Of a stretch of 64,000 bases of DNA, positions 13,106 to 21,446 are shown one piece after another. Origin of the DNA: Thermoleptolyngbya sichuanensis A183. GTDB taxonomy: Bacteria > Cyanobacteriota > Cyanobacteriia > Elainellales > Elainellaceae. Under the pieces are notes generated by a model. It saw only the letters and a program-made list of their open reading frames with translations, was not told where the DNA came from and made no database searches. The translations under genes and the position numbers were made by a program. How positions within the stretch are numbered: position 1 is the stretch's first letter; every line of letters starts with the position of its first letter. The DNA is taken from the NCBI RefSeq assembly GCF_013177315.1, contig NZ_CP053661.1:1922001-1986000 (forward strand), given 5' to 3'.

Positions 13106-13450
13106 ATGTTAATCAAGTCCACCACGCGGCACATTCGGATTTTCTCAGCAGAGGTTCAGGGCAACGAGCTAGTTCCCAGCGCTGACAAGCTGACGCTGGA
13201 CGTTGACCCAGACAATGAGCTGAACTGGAACGACGAAGCCCTGCAAGCGGTTTATAAGAAATTTGAAGAACTGACCGCGCAGTATAACGGGGCAGATCTA
13301 ACGGATTACAACGTGCGGCGGATTGGTTCAGACCTGGAGCATTTCGTGCGATCGCTCCTCTACGACGGCAAAGTCTCCTATAACCTGCAAAGCCGCGTGC
13401 GGAACTATAGCCTTGGGCTGCCCAGAGTTTCTGCCGATATCAACGTCTAG
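13106..13450 (+). CDS. ndhM: NAD(P)H-quinone oxidoreductase subunit M
   Basis: 114 residues matching the NdhM family across its length: the N-terminal LIKSTTRHIRIFSAE, the central LTLDVDPDNELNWN and the C-terminal RRIGSDLEHFVRSLL are recognisable. NdhM is an oxygenic-photosynthesis-specific subunit of the NDH-1 complex, on the cytoplasmic side of the thylakoid membrane, used in cyclic electron flow and respiration. It is a single gene; a HIP1 octamer lies just before the ATG. Confidence 0.95.
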   Translation: MLIKSTTRHIRIFSAEVQGNELVPSADKLTLDVDPDNELNWNDEALQAVYKKFEELTAQYNGADLTDYNVRRIGSDLEHFVRSLLYDGKVSYNLQSRVRNYSLGLPRVSADINV

Positions 13451-13684: not shown

Positions 13685-16279
13685 ATGCTCTACTGCTCTA
13701 ACTATTCCTGTCAGGCTCCCAATTCAGAGCGCAGCAAGTTTTGCCAGAAGTGTAGAACGCCGCTGACTAAGCGATACCTCTGGGCCATTGGCCCGGGGGC
13801 AGAGTCCTGTCGAACAGATGAGCTAGTGGCCAATCGCTACCTGGTCAAGGGCGGGCGAGTGCTGCTAGATACCAAGCCGGGGCTGCTGCCAGGAATTTCC
13901 ACGGAGCAGATTCCCGATGACCTGCTGCCCTACCTGCGGCTGTCGCCCTACGCGCTGCATGTGCCCCAGGTGTATGACTGGGTGCGGCTGGAATCGGCAG
14001 GTGGCCCCGAAAAGCTGGCCTTGCTAGAGCGATCGCCCCTTTACCTGCCCAACACGCCGTCCGATGCAGACCCTCCTGCCAGCGACCCCCAGCTTTTCCC
14101 CTCGCTCACAGACCTCTGGCCCCGATCCTCTGCGCTGCGCCAGCTCAACTGGCTCTGGCAAATCGCGCACCTGTGGCAACCCTTCGCCACCGAACAAGTC
14201 GTCTCCTCTTTGCTGATGCCGGATCTGCTGCGCGTGGAGGGGCCACTGGTGCGCCTGATGGAGCTTCAACTGGACGCATCGGGCATTGAACCGACGCTGG
14301 CAGACCTGGGCAGCCTGTGGCAGCAGTGGTTGCCCTCTGCCCATGCAAAAGTGTCGCCCCATCTCGATGCGCTCTGCCAGGACATGATCCGGGGGCAACT
14401 TCATGCTTCAGAACAGGTGATTGAACGGCTAGACGAAGCGCTGTGGACGGTGGCGCAAGCGTCGTCCCGCCAGGTGTCGCTTGCCACCCGCACCGACCAA
14501 GGCCCCAGCCGCCAGCGCAATGAAGATGCGTGCTATCCCCCTAGCGGCACGGCCCAGACGCTTGCTTTGACCCCGACGGTCACCCCGCTGCTGATTGTGT
14601 GCGACGGCATTGGCGGGCATCAGGGGGGAGATGTCGCCTCCAATCTGGCGATCGCCGCTGTGCAGCAACACCTCCAGTCCAGCGACCTCAGCCGCCTCAG
14701 TCCCTTGGCTTTGATGCAGGAGCTAGAAGCCGCCGCCTGCGCTGCCAATGACCTGATTAGCCAGCGCAACGACGAAGAGCATCGCCAGGATCGACAGCGC
14801 ATGGGCACTACGCTGGTCATGGCGCTGGTGCGCGAGCACGAGCTATACCTGGCCCATGTGGGGGACAGTCGCGCCTACTGGATTACCCCGTGGAACTGTC
14901 ACCAGATTACGCAGGATGACGACGTGGCCTCGCGCGAAGTTCGCATGGGCTATAGCTTCTATCGAGAGGCGCTGCAACATGCCAGTTCTGGCTCTCTGGT
15001 GCAGGCGCTAGGCATGGGCAGTTCGTCTTTGCTCCATGCCAACGTGCAGCGGTTTGTGCTGGATGACGACAGTCTGTTTTTGCTGTGTTCTGACGGACTG
15101 AGCGACAATGATCGGGTGGAACAGTATTGGGATTTGGAACTGCTCCCGGTGCTAGGCGGACGTGCCAATTTGGAAATCGTCACCCAGCGACTCGTAGATC
15201 TGGCGAATTCCCAAAATGGTCATGACAATGTAACCGTTGGCATTGTTCATGTCCAGCTTCCCAGCCTGTCGCCCACTAAGCTTGCACCGACGCAACTTCC
15301 TGGCGTAGAAGTCGCCCCAGCCCCGACGGCGATCGCCTCCACTGCTGTCGTTTCTCCCGTCGGCTCTCCCTCCGCCCAAGCAGCGCAAGCCTCCAAACCA
15401 CTCCCCAATCTCTCACCGCAGCCCAGCGAGCCCGCTTTGCCCAAAACGCAGGTCGTGTCGCCCGTTGCTGCCAAGCCAAGACCCCTGCCGCTGTTGCTGA
15501 CCCTCCTGGCGCTGCTGGGGGCGGGGGCGCTGGGCTACTGGCTCATGCGCGATCGCCTGACCAGTTTGACGGGGTTTCCCCCTGCGCCCACCCTATCCCC
15601 CCCTGCCGAAGAAGACCCGGCGATCGCCCTTCAGCCCGGCGCGTTTCTGCTGATCGGACGAGCAGCCGAGGGCGCACCCGGTGACATATCCGGGCTAGTG
15701 CTGCTGCCTTCCCCCCCCACAGTCGAGGGCAGCCCCACGGCATCCCCCTCCCCTGCATCCCCTGCAACGGCAGGTCTGGCGATCGCCCCTGGTAGCGTGT
15801 TGATGGTGCTAGAGCGCCGGCCTCCCGATGCTCCTGCCTGGATCAAACTCAAGGTCTGTTCGACGGAGCAAGCCGTAGCCCCTACACCAGCGGCTTCGCC
15901 GACTTCCAGCCCCGCCGCCCCGCCCATCGCGCCCGACAATGGCTCCGCTTCGAGCGCCAACCCGACGCTCCCGGCATCGCCCATTGGATCGCCCATTCGC
16001 GAGTTGCCAGCCCCACCCGCAGCGGATACGTTCAATACTCCACTGCCTGAACGAAGCGCGATCGCCCCTCCCGGAGAAGAAGGCTGGGTGGCGCTGAGCG
16101 ATCTCCGTCCGCTGATGATGCCCAACCCCACGCCGACCGATGCCCAGCGCGGCGTTTGCGTCTCTTCGTCTCCAACCCCCGATTTGCCTGCTCCACCCCC
16201 TAGTCCGCCGCCTGTTGTGCCGCCTGCTGAACCTACCACGCCCCCCAGCGATCCACCCGCCTCGCCTCCTGTCGGTTAA
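13685..16279 (+). CDS. zinc-ribbon PP2C-type Ser/Thr phosphatase with membrane anchor
   Basis: 864 residues. An N-terminal zinc ribbon uses Cys4, Cys9, Cys20 and Cys23. Residues about 263-525 form a PP2C/PPM phosphatase with all metal-binding motifs: RQRNEDA, CDGIGGHQGG, GTTLVMALV, HVGDSRAYW, CSDGLSD and HDNVTVGI. One hydrophobic segment (about 600-620) follows, then a long Pro/Ser/Ala-rich tail of about 240 residues with repeats of PPxP. The likely topology is a cytoplasmic phosphatase tethered to the membrane with an external or periplasmic tail. It removes phosphate from Ser/Thr; substrates are unknown. It sits upstream of a CHAT-FHA gene in the same direction with a 363-base gap, which suggests a shared phospho-signalling theme but not a tight operon. 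Confidence 0.92.
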   Translation: MLYCSNYSCQAPNSERSKFCQKCRTPLTKRYLWAIGPGAESCRTDELVANRYLVKGGRVLLDTKPGLLPGISTEQIPDDLLPYLRLSPYALHVPQVYDWVRLESAGGPEKLALLERSPLYLPNTPSDADPPASDPQLFPSLTDLWPRSSALRQLNWLWQIAHLWQPFATEQVVSSLLMPDLLRVEGPLVRLMELQLDASGIEPTLADLGSLWQQWLPSAHAKVSPHLDALCQDMIRGQLHASEQVIERLDEALWTVAQASSRQVSLATRTDQGPSRQRNEDACYPPSGTAQTLALTPTVTPLLIVCDGIGGHQGGDVASNLAIAAVQQHLQSSDLSRLSPLALMQELEAAACAANDLISQRNDEEHRQDRQRMGTTLVMALVREHELYLAHVGDSRAYWITPWNCHQITQDDDVASREVRMGYSFYREALQHASSGSLVQALGMGSSSLLHANVQRFVLDDDSLFLLCSDGLSDNDRVEQYWDLELLPVLGGRANLEIVTQRLVDLANSQNGHDNVTVGIVHVQLPSLSPTKLAPTQLPGVEVAPAPTAIASTAVVSPVGSPSAQAAQASKPLPNLSPQPSEPALPKTQVVSPVAAKPRPLPLLLTLLALLGAGALGYWLMRDRLTSLTGFPPAPTLSPPAEEDPAIALQPGAFLLIGRAAEGAPGDISGLVLLPSPPTVEGSPTASPSPASPATAGLAIAPGSVLMVLERRPPDAPAWIKLKVCSTEQAVAPTPAASPTSSPAAPPIAPDNGSASSANPTLPASPIGSPIRELPAPPAADTFNTPLPERSAIAPPGEEGWVALSDLRPLMMPNPTPTDAQRGVCVSSSPTPDLPAPPPSPPPVVPPAEPTTPPSDPPASPPVG

Positions 16280-16642
16280 CCTCCAAAGATCTGGTCTTCT
16301 GGGGACAAAGAGGAAAAACCCGGTGAATTACTCGATACACTGGATAAGCGTCAGCAGTGTCACGATCGGCCTTACGCGATTGACTTTGTAGGATGGCATT
16401 GCCTGGATGGGCGATCGCACGATTTAGGGCGCAGAAGCCTGGAAAAGGTTTGGGAATACTATATTCAGTGTGTTTGTTTGATTCTTGTTTGATTCAGTGT
16501 GTTTGTTTGAAGGTTGGGCTTGGATTCAAACTTCAACCCGTTGACCGCCCGTTTAGAGCTTTGCCTTCTGCAACACAACGTTGGGTGCATTTCGGTTTCA
16601 GTCATGGATTTTGTTGAATTAGCCATTTAAACTTTCGGTTTC
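16280..16642. other. 363-base spacer between PP2C and CHAT genes
   Basis: No convincing gene. It contains a 19-base direct repeat at 16463-16481 and 16492-16510 (listed separately) and a HIP1 octamer. No terminator stem with T-run was seen. Confidence 0.5.
16463..16510. repeat. 19-bp direct repeat, period 29
   Basis: ATTCAGTGTGTTTGTTTGA occurs twice without mismatch, separated by ten bases, in the spacer ahead of the CHAT-FHA gene. Confidence 0.85.
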
Positions 16643-18259
16643 ATGCTTTCGTCTGATCACCCCTGCCTGCGGCTTGCGATTCGCCGCCTTACTGCTGCTG
16701 ACGCAGACCACTATGCGATTTGGGTGCTACAAGCTCCATCGCAGGCAGGTTACGTGCATCACGACCGAGCCTGGCCAGCGGAGCTAACCGAGATCTGGCA
16801 AGCCTGGCAGTCCATGTTTTGTCTGCGAGATTTGCCCGCCGTTCCCCGGATTCCGGCGGTGGTGTTGCCGCCGCCCCAGCCCGACGACCCGACACCAGGC
16901 TACGCGGGTCGCCTGATGCAGCATTTGGGCGTGAGTCTCTGGCAGTGGTTGTTTGACGGTTCCATCCAAAATAGCCTGGCCCAGAGCCAGGGCATTGCTC
17001 AGGGACAGGGGCGATCGCTGCGGCTGCGGCTGGAGATTCGTGACCCTGAGCTAATGGCGCTGCCCTGGGAAATCATGCAGCCCCAGCCCGGACGACAGGC
17101 GATCGCCCTCAGCCAGCAGCTTTTGTTTAGCCGCACCACCAACGAAGTCGATCCGCTGCCGGCCTTGCGCGAGGAAAACTCGCTGCGGATCTTGCTAGTG
17201 CAGGGACAGGACGCTGAACCCGACCGCAGCCTTTCCACCAGCGACTTTCGCCTCCAGTTACAGCAAGAGGCCGACGCGCTGACGGCGCTGCTTCAGGATG
17301 TCACTCAGGGAGAAGCGTTTCATCGCTTTGTGCCGCCTGTGCCCTGCGAAGTGACAACGCTGGTGCAGCCGACTGCCGCCGAACTCACGTCTCACCTAGA
17401 AACCAAGCAGTACAACGTGCTGTTTTACTCTGGCCACGGGATGCCTGGCCCAGATGGCGGAATGCTCTTCTTGCGTCCCGATGCAACGATGAACGGGACG
17501 GAGCTGGCGCAAGTGCTAACCCGCTGCCGCATCAAGCTGGCCGTGTTCAACGCCTGCTGGGGCGCACAGCCCGAAATGCAGGGCGATCGCCCCATTCCCC
17601 GCAGCAGCCTGGCCGAAGTGCTGATTCATCACGGCGTACCTGCGGTGCTGGGGATGCGCGATCGCATTGCCGAACACGAAGCCCACAGCTTTATCCAGCG
17701 ATTTGCCCGGGCCCTGGCCGAGCGATCGCCCATCGACGAGGCCGTGGCGATCGCCCGCCAGCATTTGCTCACGCTCTATCGCTTCAACCAGATCGCCTGG
17801 ACCCTGCCCGTCCTTTACATGCATCCCGAATTTGACGGCGAATTGGTCAAACCGCTGACAGAAGGGGTTACGGAAATTCCCGAAAATCCCTCTAGCTGGG
17901 GCGAGGTGCCGTTTCCCTCTGCCTGCCTCCGCGCTGTCGAGCCACCCCACCAAACCTGGCCAATCTACGGCGGCATGGTGCGGGTTGGCTTTTTGGAAGG
18001 CAATGACCTGGTGATTAAATCTCCCGGCGTTTCTCGTCGCCACGCTGAGATTTTCTATCGCGGGTCGGTCGGGGCGGCTAGCGCAGAGCCGATTTACGTC
18101 CTGCGCGACTTTTCTCGCTTTGGCACGTTTCTGCTGGAACCACAGGGCCAGTGGCGAAAAGTGCATCAGGAAGAGGTCGCCCTCAAGCCCCACAGTCGCC
18201 TCCGATTTGGCACATTTCAGCTAGAGTTTGTGCCCAATGACCTCACCCCGCCTCTGTGA
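16643..18259 (+). CDS. CHAT-domain protease fused to a C-terminal FHA-like domain
   Basis: 538 residues. Residues about 180-395 form a CHAT domain (caspase-like, clan CD) with the catalytic pair His265 in FYSGHG and Cys305 in VFNACWG. An N-terminal region of about 175 residues, including EIRDPELMALPWEIM, is the usual CHAT-associated leader. Residues about 440-532 form an FHA-like fold with SRRHAEI, but the phosphothreonine-contacting Arg (GR motif) is Phe450 and the Asn of NGT is Phe, so phosphopeptide binding is doubtful. No signal peptide or membrane segment. The neighbours are a PP2C phosphatase upstream and an FHA-PrsW protease downstream. Expected to be a cytoplasmic regulated peptidase; target unknown. 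Confidence 0.88.
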   Translation: MLSSDHPCLRLAIRRLTAADADHYAIWVLQAPSQAGYVHHDRAWPAELTEIWQAWQSMFCLRDLPAVPRIPAVVLPPPQPDDPTPGYAGRLMQHLGVSLWQWLFDGSIQNSLAQSQGIAQGQGRSLRLRLEIRDPELMALPWEIMQPQPGRQAIALSQQLLFSRTTNEVDPLPALREENSLRILLVQGQDAEPDRSLSTSDFRLQLQQEADALTALLQDVTQGEAFHRFVPPVPCEVTTLVQPTAAELTSHLETKQYNVLFYSGHGMPGPDGGMLFLRPDATMNGTELAQVLTRCRIKLAVFNACWGAQPEMQGDRPIPRSSLAEVLIHHGVPAVLGMRDRIAEHEAHSFIQRFARALAERSPIDEAVAIARQHLLTLYRFNQIAWTLPVLYMHPEFDGELVKPLTEGVTEIPENPSSWGEVPFPSACLRAVEPPHQTWPIYGGMVRVGFLEGNDLVIKSPGVSRRHAEIFYRGSVGAASAEPIYVLRDFSRFGTFLLEPQGQWRKVHQEEVALKPHSRLRFGTFQLEFVPNDLTPPL

Positions 18260-18510
18260 CGCTTGGCTCCTGGCTGCGCTTTGGCCAGAGCAGGTACGGC
18301 TTTCTGGGTTTATTGTGTTTATATTTGTCTGGATAATACTCTTTCAAAATTTCCACTTTAGCCCGCTGCCAAAATTTTCAAATTCCTTATCAGCCAATTA
18401 CGGAACTGACCCATCCGAGTCTGTAGCTAGTCCTATCGAACCCATTCGATACCCACTTAATACAAGTCACCATAGACAACACTTGTCCGGCGCATTCAGG
18501 AGCAAGAACC

Positions 18511-19131
18511 ATGGCAAGCGATTCAACCCGTCCCTGCTTTTCTGCCTTTCGATCTCAGGCTGAGCTAGAACTCCTCCAGGTCGTATTAGATGATGCGGAT
18601 GCATCCTACCCCTGGAATCCGGCAGACCCTGCCGCATCTAGCTATTTTGAACAGCTTGAGCAGGAAGTGGCAGCGGGTTGGCCGACTGACATGCTCGATT
18701 CCTATGCCCAGTCCCTTTCCATGCAATTTGACCAACTGTGGGCCACGGTGGATGCGGCTCAAAATGCGGCTCAACCTGTGCTGACGACCGCCTCTTTCAG
18801 CGGACTGTTTCAGCGGTTTGCCGACCGGATGCCGCAAGGACTGCTGGAACGGCTGGTGCAGCAGGCGCAGATGGCGATCGCCTCTTCCAACTCTCTGGCC
18901 GATCAACTGGTTGCCAGCGTCCGCGACGTGCTGCCCGAGTGGGGCGATGATGATCTGTACGTGCTGGCGCGTCCTTTTGCCTATGCCATGCGCGACAAGG
19001 GCGAAAACGACCTGCTAGAGGGAGCGCTGCGCTCGGTGCGCTCCGAAGCCTGGGAAGACCTCTCCAGCATTGAGCAAGCCCGCCTCAGTCTGGCGATCGC
19101 CCGCCATATTATCGACCAATCCAAGGTTTGA
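18511..19131 (+). CDS. conserved-looking helical protein of unknown function
   Basis: 206 residues with a good ribosome site (AGGAG nine bases before the ATG). The sequence is rich in Ala, Leu, Gln and Asp with long amphipathic helices, no Cys-rich motif, no membrane segment and no recognised domain. Codon use and the HIP1 octamers match the neighbours, so it is a native gene. It lies 251 bases after the CHAT-FHA gene in the same direction and converges on the FHA-PrsW gene. I do not recognise its family; its position makes it a candidate partner or substrate of the protease, which is inference. Confidence 0.8.
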   Translation: MASDSTRPCFSAFRSQAELELLQVVLDDADASYPWNPADPAASSYFEQLEQEVAAGWPTDMLDSYAQSLSMQFDQLWATVDAAQNAAQPVLTTASFSGLFQRFADRMPQGLLERLVQQAQMAIASSNSLADQLVASVRDVLPEWGDDDLYVLARPFAYAMRDKGENDLLEGALRSVRSEAWEDLSSIEQARLSLAIARHIIDQSKV

Positions 19132-19242
19132 CCCATTCAAGGCTTGAGCCATCTAAGGCGCGATTCATCCAGTGCGGCGGGTAGGACGGAGTAGCAGAGC
19201 GACAGGGTAGCCCGCTCCAGCGCCCCAATACGCCAACCCCTC

Positions 19243-20628
19243 CTACCCCCGCCGCCTCAGTTGCGTAGCAAAGTTCTCACGGCGCGTGGGCGAGAGTTTG
19301 CGGGCTTTAAGAATGGCTGCCATCAGAAACGCATAGGACACGCTGCCGACGATGGCCAGCGCCGACAGGTTCAAAATGCCGCAGACGTTCCATAGCGCGT
19401 GCAGCACAGAGGCCGTCAGATAGCCCGTTCCCAGAGTCCGCCAGCGGTGGTCCGGCTTCAACATGCTGAGGCCGATGAAATAGCCCAAATAACCGCTATA
19501 GGCGATGTGTCCGGCGATTGACCCCAGCACGCGGGCAATCAAAATTTGCAGCCCCGACACTTCTCCCAGCCCGATGCCTCCCTGCATGTTCACGTTCTGA
19601 ATCACGCTGGGCACGTATTGTCCGAGCGTTTCCAGCAGCGTGAAGCCAACGGCCGAAGCAGTGCCCAGCAAGATACCATCCAGCGGTTCCCAGACCCCCA
19701 ACCGCTCTCGCCAGGGCGATCGCAGCGCCAGACCCACCGCGCAGGCCACCAGCACCGGAATCGCCTTCAGCAGTTCCTCCATCAGCCCTGCCCCGATGAA
19801 CATCTGCCCCAGCAAAACCAGCAAATTGCCAGAAAACCGGGCGGGAATGTCTCCGGGCAACAGGTCTTGGAACACATAGATAAACAGGTTCAGCACCGGG
19901 CTGAGCAGCAGCACCACCATCATCAGCGCCGCCCCCAACAGCCACCATAAGGGTTTGGGCTTGCCGCAAAGCTGGTAGACCACGTAATAGGCGGCGATCG
20001 CCAGATAGGTCGCCAGTGTGACATTAAACACGGGCGGATTGCCTACTGCAATAAACAGCAGCACCACAAAGCTGACGGTGATGATTCCTGGCACCAAGTA
20101 AGCCCGCTGGAGCAGATCGGTTCCCGTGGACAGAATGGGAAACAACTGACTGACGGTGATGCCTTCATCAGCAAACCCTGCATCTTCCGGCGGGTCTGGC
20201 ACATCGGCCTCTGCCTGCAAGTCGCTCGACACGGTGGGAATCAGGCGGGCATCGGGGATCGAAGCATCATCTGCCGACTGAACCGGGCGCAGCTCAAACA
20301 CAAACTGCGGCCCGCGCTGGCCTAAGGAGAGGCGATCGCCCGCCCGCAACCGCTCTGCCTGATGCAGGAGTCGCCCATTCAGGTAAGTCCCGTTCGTGCT
20401 TTCCAGGTCGCGGAGTTGCCAGCCTACTCGGTCAGGCGTGGCTTCGATACAGGCATGAAACCGGGAAACCCCGCTGTAGGCCGCCGAATCCACCACAATT
20501 TGGCAGTCTGGATCGCGCCCCAGCCGCACCTCTCGCGTCAGCGGCAGGGGGTATGCCACATCTGCCTGAGCTGCGTCCGTCGGGGCACATAGCCGCAGAT
20601 AGGCGACCTGGGGCACAAAGTCCGTCAC
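19243..20628 (-). CDS. FHA domain fused to PrsW-family membrane protease
   Basis: 461 residues. An N-terminal FHA domain (about residues 30-115) has intact phosphothreonine motifs: LGRDPDC, GVSRFHA, STNGTYLNG. After a linker rich in Asp and Pro come about eight membrane helices with the PrsW signature: Glu284-Glu285 in MEELLKA, Glu333 in GFTLLE, His374 in GHIAYSG and His410 in LHALWN, the presumed metal ligands. PrsW in Bacillus cuts an anti-sigma factor within the membrane. Here a phosphopeptide-binding domain could recruit phosphorylated substrates (inference). The start is GTG, overlapping by four bases the stop of the upstream small membrane protein gene, so the two are translationally coupled. 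Confidence 0.9.
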   Translation of the reverse strand: MTDFVPQVAYLRLCAPTDAAQADVAYPLPLTREVRLGRDPDCQIVVDSAAYSGVSRFHACIEATPDRVGWQLRDLESTNGTYLNGRLLHQAERLRAGDRLSLGQRGPQFVFELRPVQSADDASIPDARLIPTVSSDLQAEADVPDPPEDAGFADEGITVSQLFPILSTGTDLLQRAYLVPGIITVSFVVLLFIAVGNPPVFNVTLATYLAIAAYYVVYQLCGKPKPLWWLLGAALMMVVLLLSPVLNLFIYVFQDLLPGDIPARFSGNLLVLLGQMFIGAGLMEELLKAIPVLVACAVGLALRSPWRERLGVWEPLDGILLGTASAVGFTLLETLGQYVPSVIQNVNMQGGIGLGEVSGLQILIARVLGSIAGHIAYSGYLGYFIGLSMLKPDHRWRTLGTGYLTASVLHALWNVCGILNLSALAIVGSVSYAFLMAAILKARKLSPTRRENFATQLRRRG

Positions 20629-20822
20629 TGGTTTGCTCGGGCATCGCGGACGGCCGCCAAAAACAGCAGCACCGTTAGAGGAATGCTAAGCGCCAGAATA
20701 ATGCCCGTGGGCGCTGTCCCCAGTTGGGGGGTTTTGGAGGTCAGCTCGAAGATGGAACCAATGGCGGCGATCGCCGCAATACAGGAGCCTGCAAGAAACA
20801 GGCCGCTTTTGGGAGTCATCAT
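20625..20822 (-). CDS. small two-helix membrane protein
   Basis: About 65 residues from the ATG at 20822 (ATG at 20819 and TTG at 20858 are alternatives; no clear ribosome site decides). Two hydrophobic helices, GLFLAGSCIAAIAAIGSIF and TGIILALSIPLTVLLFLAAV, are joined by a short polar turn, ending in RDARANQ. No family recognised. It lies between def and the FHA-PrsW gene in the same direction, overlapping the latter by four bases, so it may be a membrane partner of the protease. Confidence 0.7.
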   Translation of the reverse strand: MMTPKSGLFLAGSCIAAIAAIGSIFELTSKTPQLGTAPTGIILALSIPLTVLLFLAAVRDARANQ

Positions 20823-20870
20823 AGGGCGGAGGGATGGGCGGACGGTAGCAGCAGTCAATCGAGACGGGAC

Positions 20871-21446
20871 TCAGGCAACGGGCTTCACAGCCTGCACCGA
20901 AAAGCCATTCTTGCTTAGCTCTTGGTTCAGCGCCAGGGCGTTGTCCACACGGTCTACAAACATCACGCCGTTCAGGTGATCCATTTCATGCAAAATGACC
21001 CGCGCCAGCAGATCATTTGCCACCAGCTTTTGCGGGCGGCCCATCTCGTCTTTGTAGGACACCTCAACCTCTTCTGGGCGAGTCACGTCCAGAAATACGC
21101 CCGGAATGCTCAGACAGCCCTCCTGAATCACGCAGGTTTTGCTGCTCTGGCGCGTGATGCTGGGGTTGATCAGCACCAGCGGCGGGGTCTTGGGTTCATC
21201 CAGATGAATGTCAATCACGATGAGCTGCTTGTGAACCCCGACCTGGGGAGCCGCCAGCCCAATGCCGTCTTCGCTATACATGGTTTGCAGCATTTGCCGC
21301 GCCAGTTGGCGCACCTCGTCGTCCACTTTGGTAATGCGCTTGGCAGGCTGCCTCAGCACGCGATCGCCCAGGTAGTGTAGCTCCAGCGGCGGCTTCGACA
21401 GCTTTTTCTTTTCGACAAAAATAGACGAGGTGGTTTGAGAAGGCAT
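20871..21446 (-). CDS. def: peptide deformylase
   Basis: 191 residues with all three deformylase motifs: GIGLAAPQVG, EGCLSIPG and HEMDHLNG, supplying the Cys and two His metal ligands and the catalytic Glu. It removes the formyl group from nascent proteins at the ribosome. The N-terminal extension of about 20 residues before the core (KPPLELHYLGD) is common in cyanobacteria and plastids. It is the first gene of a minus-strand run def - small membrane protein - FHA-PrsW, with only short gaps. Confidence 0.97.
   Translation of the reverse strand: MPSQTTSSIFVEKKKLSKPPLELHYLGDRVLRQPAKRITKVDDEVRQLARQMLQTMYSEDGIGLAAPQVGVHKQLIVIDIHLDEPKTPPLVLINPSITRQSSKTCVIQEGCLSIPGVFLDVTRPEEVEVSYKDEMGRPQKLVANDLLARVILHEMDHLNGVMFVDRVDNALALNQELSKNGFSVQAVKPVA

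Follow-up and report, generated by a model that had tools for sequence, protein, structure and literature searches.

HetF (Alr3546) is a cyanobacterial CHAT protein needed for heterocyst initiation and, under some conditions, for division, and it no longer functions once its active site is mutated (PMC8406250, passages on HetF). PrpJ, encoded by all1731 of Anabaena PCC 7120, is a PP2C-type phosphatase needed for heterocyst maturation, the mutant being without the major heterocyst glycolipid (PMC6161253, passage on the mutant). Fusions of PrsW peptidases with FHA domains have been noted as likely signaling peptidases (Zhang et al. 2012; PMC3482391), the passages on such fusions dealing with neither a cyanobacterial neighborhood nor a small membrane partner. 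Here we describe a gene group that brings together a PP2C-type Ser/Thr phosphatase (hereafter PP2C), a CHAT protease fused to an FHA domain (CHAT-FHA) and an FHA-PrsW fusion. It lies in the window, that is the whole stretch of 64,000 nucleotides that was analyzed (C1:1922001-1986000, where C1 is the single contig of the 5.53 Mb genome of Thermoleptolyngbya sichuanensis A183). Between ndhM and def, the plus strand carries PP2C, CHAT-FHA and a helical protein of 206 amino acids (aa), labeled HEL here, and the minus strand carries FHA-PrsW and a small membrane protein. The results of our analysis indicate that CHAT-FHA and HEL occur as a nearly obligate pair, which we tentatively place, together with PP2C, in a phosphorylation-controlled proteolytic unit.

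Near-Obligate Pairing of CHAT-FHA and HEL

HEL, CHAT-FHA, PP2C and FHA-PrsW were each searched against 146 genomes of Cyanobacteriia, one per species and with at least 90% completeness; the phyletic associations given below ignore kinship and are not tree-corrected. HEL is present in 68 of these genomes and CHAT-FHA in 67, and both are found together in 67. The CHAT-FHA orthologues are distinct, their best piece scoring above 340 bits as against 182 bits at most for HetF-type matches. In 55 genomes from 14 families the two genes are adjacent and on the same strand. Twelve further genomes were tabled as non-adjacent: in ten the genes are unlinked by position, one (G003) reflects a contig break, with a C-terminal piece of CHAT-FHA adjoining HEL, and one (G020) was not counted either way. 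The distance reaches 1.13 Mb on one contig in genome G005, which has kept both genes. Within the family of Nostoc carneum, whose HEL (locus L163) has a 100% match in genome G158, HEL is present in 194/196 genomes with completeness of at least 98%. Two genomes of one genus in this family (G154 and G155) have neither HEL nor CHAT-FHA, only a HetF-type CHAT protein remaining, and both proteins are also absent from genome G114.

CHAT-FHA and HEL thus behave as a nearly obligate pair, beyond mere neighbors, because unlinked pairs are kept and because the two proteins are jointly absent from G154, G155 and G114. The co-occurrence of unlinked pairs is a stronger argument for shared function than gene position, which alone is no proof of it because ndhM is also conserved in the block. 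The cluster is widespread in filamentous-type cyanobacteria and the phyletic profile of the pair follows that of HetR, HEL and HetR being found together in 63 genomes (phi 0.81). For FHA-PrsW the association with HetR is far looser (both in 52 genomes, phi 0.20). FHA-PrsW was found in 91/146 genomes (94 table rows of full or near-full matches, domain-only matches having been dropped); it is absent from 14 genomes with HEL and has 37 carriers without HEL (phi 0.33). The original prediction, which drew all four proteins into a single module, is therefore not supported as regards FHA-PrsW: with its small partner it is a frequent neighbor, looser than the unit of PP2C, CHAT-FHA and HEL. (The PP2C table, of 80 rows, leaves out most paralogue rows, and the co-occurrence figures exclude PP2C.)

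Conservation of the Gene Neighborhood

Gene order was compared among named loci with flanks of at most 10 kb. These were the best 80 of the 264 HEL relatives obtained when GTDB representatives were searched with a profile. This set leans to the closest relatives, among them strains and metagenome-assembled genomes of Oculatella, Elainella, Drouetiella and Leptolyngbya, and partly overlaps the sample of 146 genomes; the denominators of the neighbor counts (79, 64 and 68) are the loci with enough flanking DNA. CHAT-FHA lies directly upstream of HEL on the same strand in 76/79 loci, and PP2C is next upstream of CHAT-FHA, again on the same strand, in 50/64; the core order is thus PP2C, CHAT-FHA, HEL, all on one strand. 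FHA-PrsW is convergent downstream of HEL in 47/68 loci, with the small membrane protein (MTPKSG...DARANQ) beside it in 24/49. The syntenic block extends from ndhM to FHA-PrsW or def; acsF and larE, which lie near the locus in the window, did not turn up in any of the 80 named stretches. Conservation of the neighborhood past the closest relatives, on which the original prediction was made to hang, was found to reach far beyond them, and the chance clustering that the prediction allowed for is at odds with this conservation. The catalytic residues of all three enzymes are intact.

Outside the block, the top recurrent family within 10 kb is a response regulator, present in 32/80 stretches, many of which end at contig ends. 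Among loci L129-L208, this response regulator lies at a median of 7.6 kb upstream of HEL, mostly beyond ndhM.

Domains and Conserved Residues

In CHAT-FHA, the catalytic dyad of His265 and Cys305 is invariant in 73/73 aligned sequences. The structural model (predicted local distance difference test 80, predicted template modeling score [pTM] 0.68) consists of a small N-terminal domain followed by CHAT and FHA domains, and its best Foldseek matches are TPR-CHAT/Csx29 of Craspase, separase, and FHA domains, one of which has a bound phosphothreonine peptide. The likeness to separase and TPR-CHAT/Csx29 is partial, with whole-query template modeling scores of 0.28-0.47, and CHAT-FHA has its FHA domain where those proteins have large partner regions. 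The CHAT domain aligns with the HetF model NF045509 (2.5e-53), yet the 181.6 bits obtained against this equivalog (CellDiv_HetF) cover residues 94-404 only and lie below the cut-off of 1200. A HetF-type gene is located elsewhere in this genome, at C1:2920817, and CHAT-FHA has about half the length of its frame (538 vs. 1036 aa). HetF carries transmembrane and TPR parts (PMC8406250, passages on HetF), whereas CHAT-FHA carries an FHA domain. FHA-PrsW fusions are already in print, whereas we found no work that links CHAT proteases with FHA domains in the open-licence literature, and no convincing Pfam family was found for HEL.

For HEL of the window, no Pfam family was matched at E 0.1, and among its relatives any family matches at most 6/80 members, the best single E value being 0.0011. 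The HEL model is all-helical, with a pTM of only 0.54. Foldseek found nothing in PDB at E ≤0.001 and nothing convincing in BFVD, the best match in an hmmsearch of PDB (0.0028) is a designed bundle, and the best Z in VIA (3.7) is unconvincing; these structure searches rest on a moderate model and do not by themselves show a new fold. Five residues (D148, R154, R161, W181 and L184) are present in 80/80 sequences. In addition, a YPWNP motif occupies residues 33-37 (18607-18621) within a low-confidence N-terminal stretch, its Tyr being kept in 79/80 and its Trp in 76/80 sequences, and the segment of residues 154-165 (18970-19005) holds invariant Arg161 just ahead of a loop of variable length. The YPWNP motif and Arg161 are candidate docking or cleavage sites.

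The metal-binding Asp motifs of PP2C are invariant in 53/53 sequences, and the four Cys columns of its prefix have no substitute residue, showing gaps in 6-7 of the 53 rows. Against the PRK14559 equivalog (Ser/Thr phosphatase) PP2C scores 268.8 bits, below the cut-off of 374. Its relatives have a similar hydropathy peak at the predicted transmembrane helix, except truncated L149, and among 50 tails of at least 150 residues 45 have the Cys motif with a later Cys and 27 a GxGWI-like pattern. Judging from this transmembrane helix and the following tail with its conserved Cys pair, PP2C looks like a receptor-type phosphatase. PrpJ is also reportedly membrane-located, by the title of a paper by Jang from 2007. 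In part of the relatives, the tail shows a GSVLxVL...W.xLRVCS...GxxGWI pattern that resembles bacterial SH3 domains; the Anabaena relatives L185 and L196 have a short tail only.

Between the prefix and the catalytic domain, PP2C has a conserved region of about 240 residues (28-268; 13766-14488) with a weak colinear match of 136 columns to the kinases of the same genome. Together with the kinase-type prefix, this match raised the thought that the region is possibly a kinase in degenerate form, joined to the phosphatase. Profile comparison did not establish a pseudokinase here: hhalign gave probabilities of 1.3-2.3%, and neither the P of 0.039 in one comparison nor that of 0.021 in another, the best of 27 non-self profiles with the next at 0.029, makes a convincing case, the latter being not significant. 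No kinase was found at E 10 in an hmmsearch of PDB with residues 28-268.

PrsW peptidases are marked by EExxK and FxxxE motifs and two His residues. All of these, as well as the FHA motif residues, are present in 77/77 FHA-PrsW sequences, a set that includes some genes twice, having been drawn from two sources. The score against the PrsW equivalog NF033739 is 15.8 bits, below the cut-off of 225. The adjoining small protein was originally predicted to be coupled to FHA-PrsW and to start at a TTG codon (20858); its gene overlaps the start of FHA-PrsW by 4 bp, and its own start is probably an ATG near 20822, because several relatives begin with MTPKSG or MMTPKSG. It was not detected in Nostoc-type stretches.

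Probable Relation to prpJ

In Nostoc-type loci, PP2C, CHAT-FHA and HEL follow in succession on one strand, which fits the series all1731-all1730-all1729; the step of two from all1731 to all1729 matches the spacing of PP2C and HEL, the second gene after it. Judged by gene order and locus numbers, PP2C of the window is probably the orthologue of PrpJ (All1731), and HEL is probably All1729. For all1730 we found nothing in the open-licence literature.

Features of the Locus

The features are collected in table 1. The five genes lie at the places originally given for them, and their first descriptions agree with the matches listed: a membrane-bound zinc-ribbon PP2C, with its 4-Cys prefix just above the cut-off of the family model; a CHAT protease with an FHA-like domain; a helical protein without known family; and a PrsW protease with an intact FHA domain. 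A generic regulatory scan counted 4 promoter-like sites vs. 1.9 in shuffles, and 7 terminator-like sites vs. 7.0.

Table 1. Coordinates (positions in the window) of the genes, domains and motifs discussed in the text.
Feature	Position	Strand	Details
ndhM, upstream neighbor of PP2C, edge of syntenic block	13106..13450	+	Conserved in 43/64 loci
Membrane PP2C-type Ser/Thr phosphatase, 864 aa	13685..16279	+	PP2C_2 1.2e-12
4-Cys prefix (C4, C9, C20, C23), type named for cyanobacterial kinases	13694..13753	+	NCBIfam NF045510 24.4 bits, cut-off 24
PP2C catalytic domain, residues 270-524	14492..15256	+	
Predicted single transmembrane helix, residues 603-621	15491..15547	+	Hydropathy peak 1.97
Predicted extracytoplasmic tail, Pro-rich, conserved Cys pair	15548..16276	+	
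CHAT-FHA caspase-like protease, 538 aa	16643..18259	+	Pfam CHAT 9e-23, FHA 5.3e-9
CHAT domain, residues 87-393	16901..17821	+	His265 (17435-17437), Cys305 (17555-17557)
Divergent FHA domain, residues 427-531	17921..18235	+	Position 450 Phe, Ser464 kept, position 493 Phe
HEL, all-helical orphan, 206 aa	18511..19131	+	Constant CHAT-FHA partner
FHA-PrsW intramembrane protease, 461 aa	19243..20628	-	PrsW 2e-32, FHA 1.1e-17; convergent with HEL
PrsW peptidase domain	19312..19953	-	E284-E285-x-x-K288, F329..E333, H374, H410; 77/77 sequences
Intact FHA domain of FHA-PrsW	20317..20529	-	G37-R38, S55, H58, N79-G80-T81; 77/77 sequences
Small two-helix membrane protein, ~65 aa	20625..20822	-	4-bp overlap with FHA-PrsW start
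def, far side of gene group	20871-21446		

The alignments comprised 28/30 matches (A1), 79/80 loci plus the window (A2), 72/77 CHAT-FHA loci plus the window (A3, incomplete, short and duplicate sequences having been dropped), 40/51 (A4) and 17/20 kinase loci (A5; 18 in a later comparison).

Discussion

The reading that we prefer, and hold tentatively, is that PP2C, CHAT-FHA and HEL constitute a phosphorylation-controlled proteolytic unit of filamentous-type cyanobacteria in which HEL is a dedicated partner. It builds on the conserved order of the genes, the joint occurrence of CHAT-FHA and HEL, the intactness of the catalytic residues and the HetR-like distribution. In such a unit PP2C would sense the envelope through its extracytoplasmic tail with the Cys pair and dephosphorylate a protein bound by the FHA domain of CHAT-FHA; an unlinked Ser/Thr kinase would phosphorylate this ligand, with the consequence that CHAT-FHA would be recruited or activated. 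HEL would serve CHAT-FHA as substrate, adaptor or inhibitor. Filament differentiation or division may be the target of the output, as with PrpJ and HetF. FHA-PrsW with its small membrane partner would be a second phospho-reading protease, often beside the unit and not a required part of it. As a proposal, phospho-gated proteolysis is plausible.

Several results weigh against the proposed unit, and foremost among them is the state of the FHA domain. FHA domains bind phosphothreonine by means of an Arg, a Ser and the Asn of an NGT motif. The FHA fold of the CHAT-linked family is recognized by Pfam and Foldseek, and its members keep the Ser in 72/73 and the Arg in 58/73 sequences, but the NGT Asn is lost in 71/73 (kept in 2/73), with an aromatic residue in its place in 66; in the window protein, position 450, that of the phosphate-binding Arg, is Phe, so that the set of binding residues is incomplete. 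The original claim that FHA reads phosphothreonine is thus supported by motif for FHA-PrsW and is in doubt for the CHAT-linked domain, where such reading would be the weakest step of the mechanism. As originally reported, the window has no Ser/Thr kinase: of 20 Pkinase matches in the genome, 19 of which exceed the cut-off, none falls inside. PP2C was not found upstream in 14/64 named loci, and G154 and G155 keep PP2C though without the pair. In one genome (G036, C16:53477-58468), CHAT-FHA is missing and HEL is flanked by PP2C and FHA-PrsW. HEL occurs without HetR in 5 genomes and HetR without HEL in 9, the gains and losses behind these associations are few, and all1729, earlier listed as filament-specific, was withdrawn from the filament core set after tree analysis (PMC2821919, passages on this gene). 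Finally, in a mirror-tree comparison of the 36 loci where none of the five proteins is missing, the correlation between PP2C and FHA-PrsW (0.93) is of the same strength as for the core pairs and remains at 0.63-0.67 whichever of the other three proteins is held fixed, which speaks against FHA-PrsW as an outsider; given PP2C, the correlation with FHA-PrsW falls to 0.07 for CHAT-FHA and 0.16 for HEL. The pairs of this comparison are non-independent and its result is mixed, and no conclusion rests on it. (Genome G036 has no HetR match and no strong HetF-type CHAT protein, and is a natural test case for HEL acting alone.)

The main competing explanation, possible and in our view somewhat doubtful, is that CHAT-FHA and HEL are a stand-alone pair of protease and partner, with HEL as substrate, inhibitor or chaperone, PP2C as a frequent neighbor and the FHA domain as a scaffold that does not read phosphothreonine. 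This would account for the eroded FHA motif and for the fact that only CHAT-FHA and HEL are nearly obligate, PP2C relatives being broader (some match in 131/146 genomes) and missing upstream in the loci mentioned above; moreover, the YPWNP motif of HEL lies in a low-confidence stretch, as would suit a site of docking or cleavage. It fits less well with the regular position of PP2C upstream on the same strand, with the retention of the FHA Ser and, in most sequences, Arg, or with the distance correlation between CHAT-FHA and PP2C, which is the highest (0.94; 0.61 given HEL), although this is a weak kind of evidence.

A more far-reaching proposal, which we consider unlikely, likens the phosphorylation-controlled unit to a separase-like pathway serving multicellular life in cyanobacteria: a PrpJ-type phosphatase would set the phosphorylation of the ligand and CHAT-FHA would cut HEL, or cut through it, thereby committing filament cells to differentiation or division. 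If true, it would explain both the failure of the prpJ mutant in heterocyst maturation and the way in which HEL, probably All1729, tracks HetR.

It is improbable that the gene group merely retains an ancestral order (ndhM-PP2C-CHAT-FHA-HEL / PrsW-small-def) without functional coupling. Conservation of ndhM, which encodes a subunit of photosynthetic NDH-1, in 43/64 loci is nearly as strong as that of several members, and def lies within 23/80 named stretches; nevertheless, CHAT-FHA and HEL persist together when unlinked and vanish together elsewhere, which makes mere inheritance of gene order hard to hold for the pair, and outside the block even the top recurrent family is limited to the minority of stretches given above. 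Very improbable is an anti-phage or cell-suicide system with a CHAT protease like Craspase, for despite the resemblance of the CHAT model to Craspase TPR-CHAT and to a SAVED-CHAT filament, defence genes are patchy in distribution whereas almost every genome of the Nostoc carneum family has HEL, and no PADLOC model matched CHAT-FHA, HEL or FHA-PrsW at E 0.1 (nor the small protein at that threshold, PP2C having weak matches only, the best of 0.0017 on its 4-Cys prefix).

The proposed unit of PP2C, CHAT-FHA and HEL bears upon a wider group of enzymes, since CHAT proteases such as HetF and Craspase and the related separase have roles in development, division and defence. Should the cluster prove to be the prpJ locus, it would offer two specific candidates as partners of a phosphatase whose mutant phenotype is developmental, and a protease as partner of one gene from the old list of filament-specific hypothetical genes.

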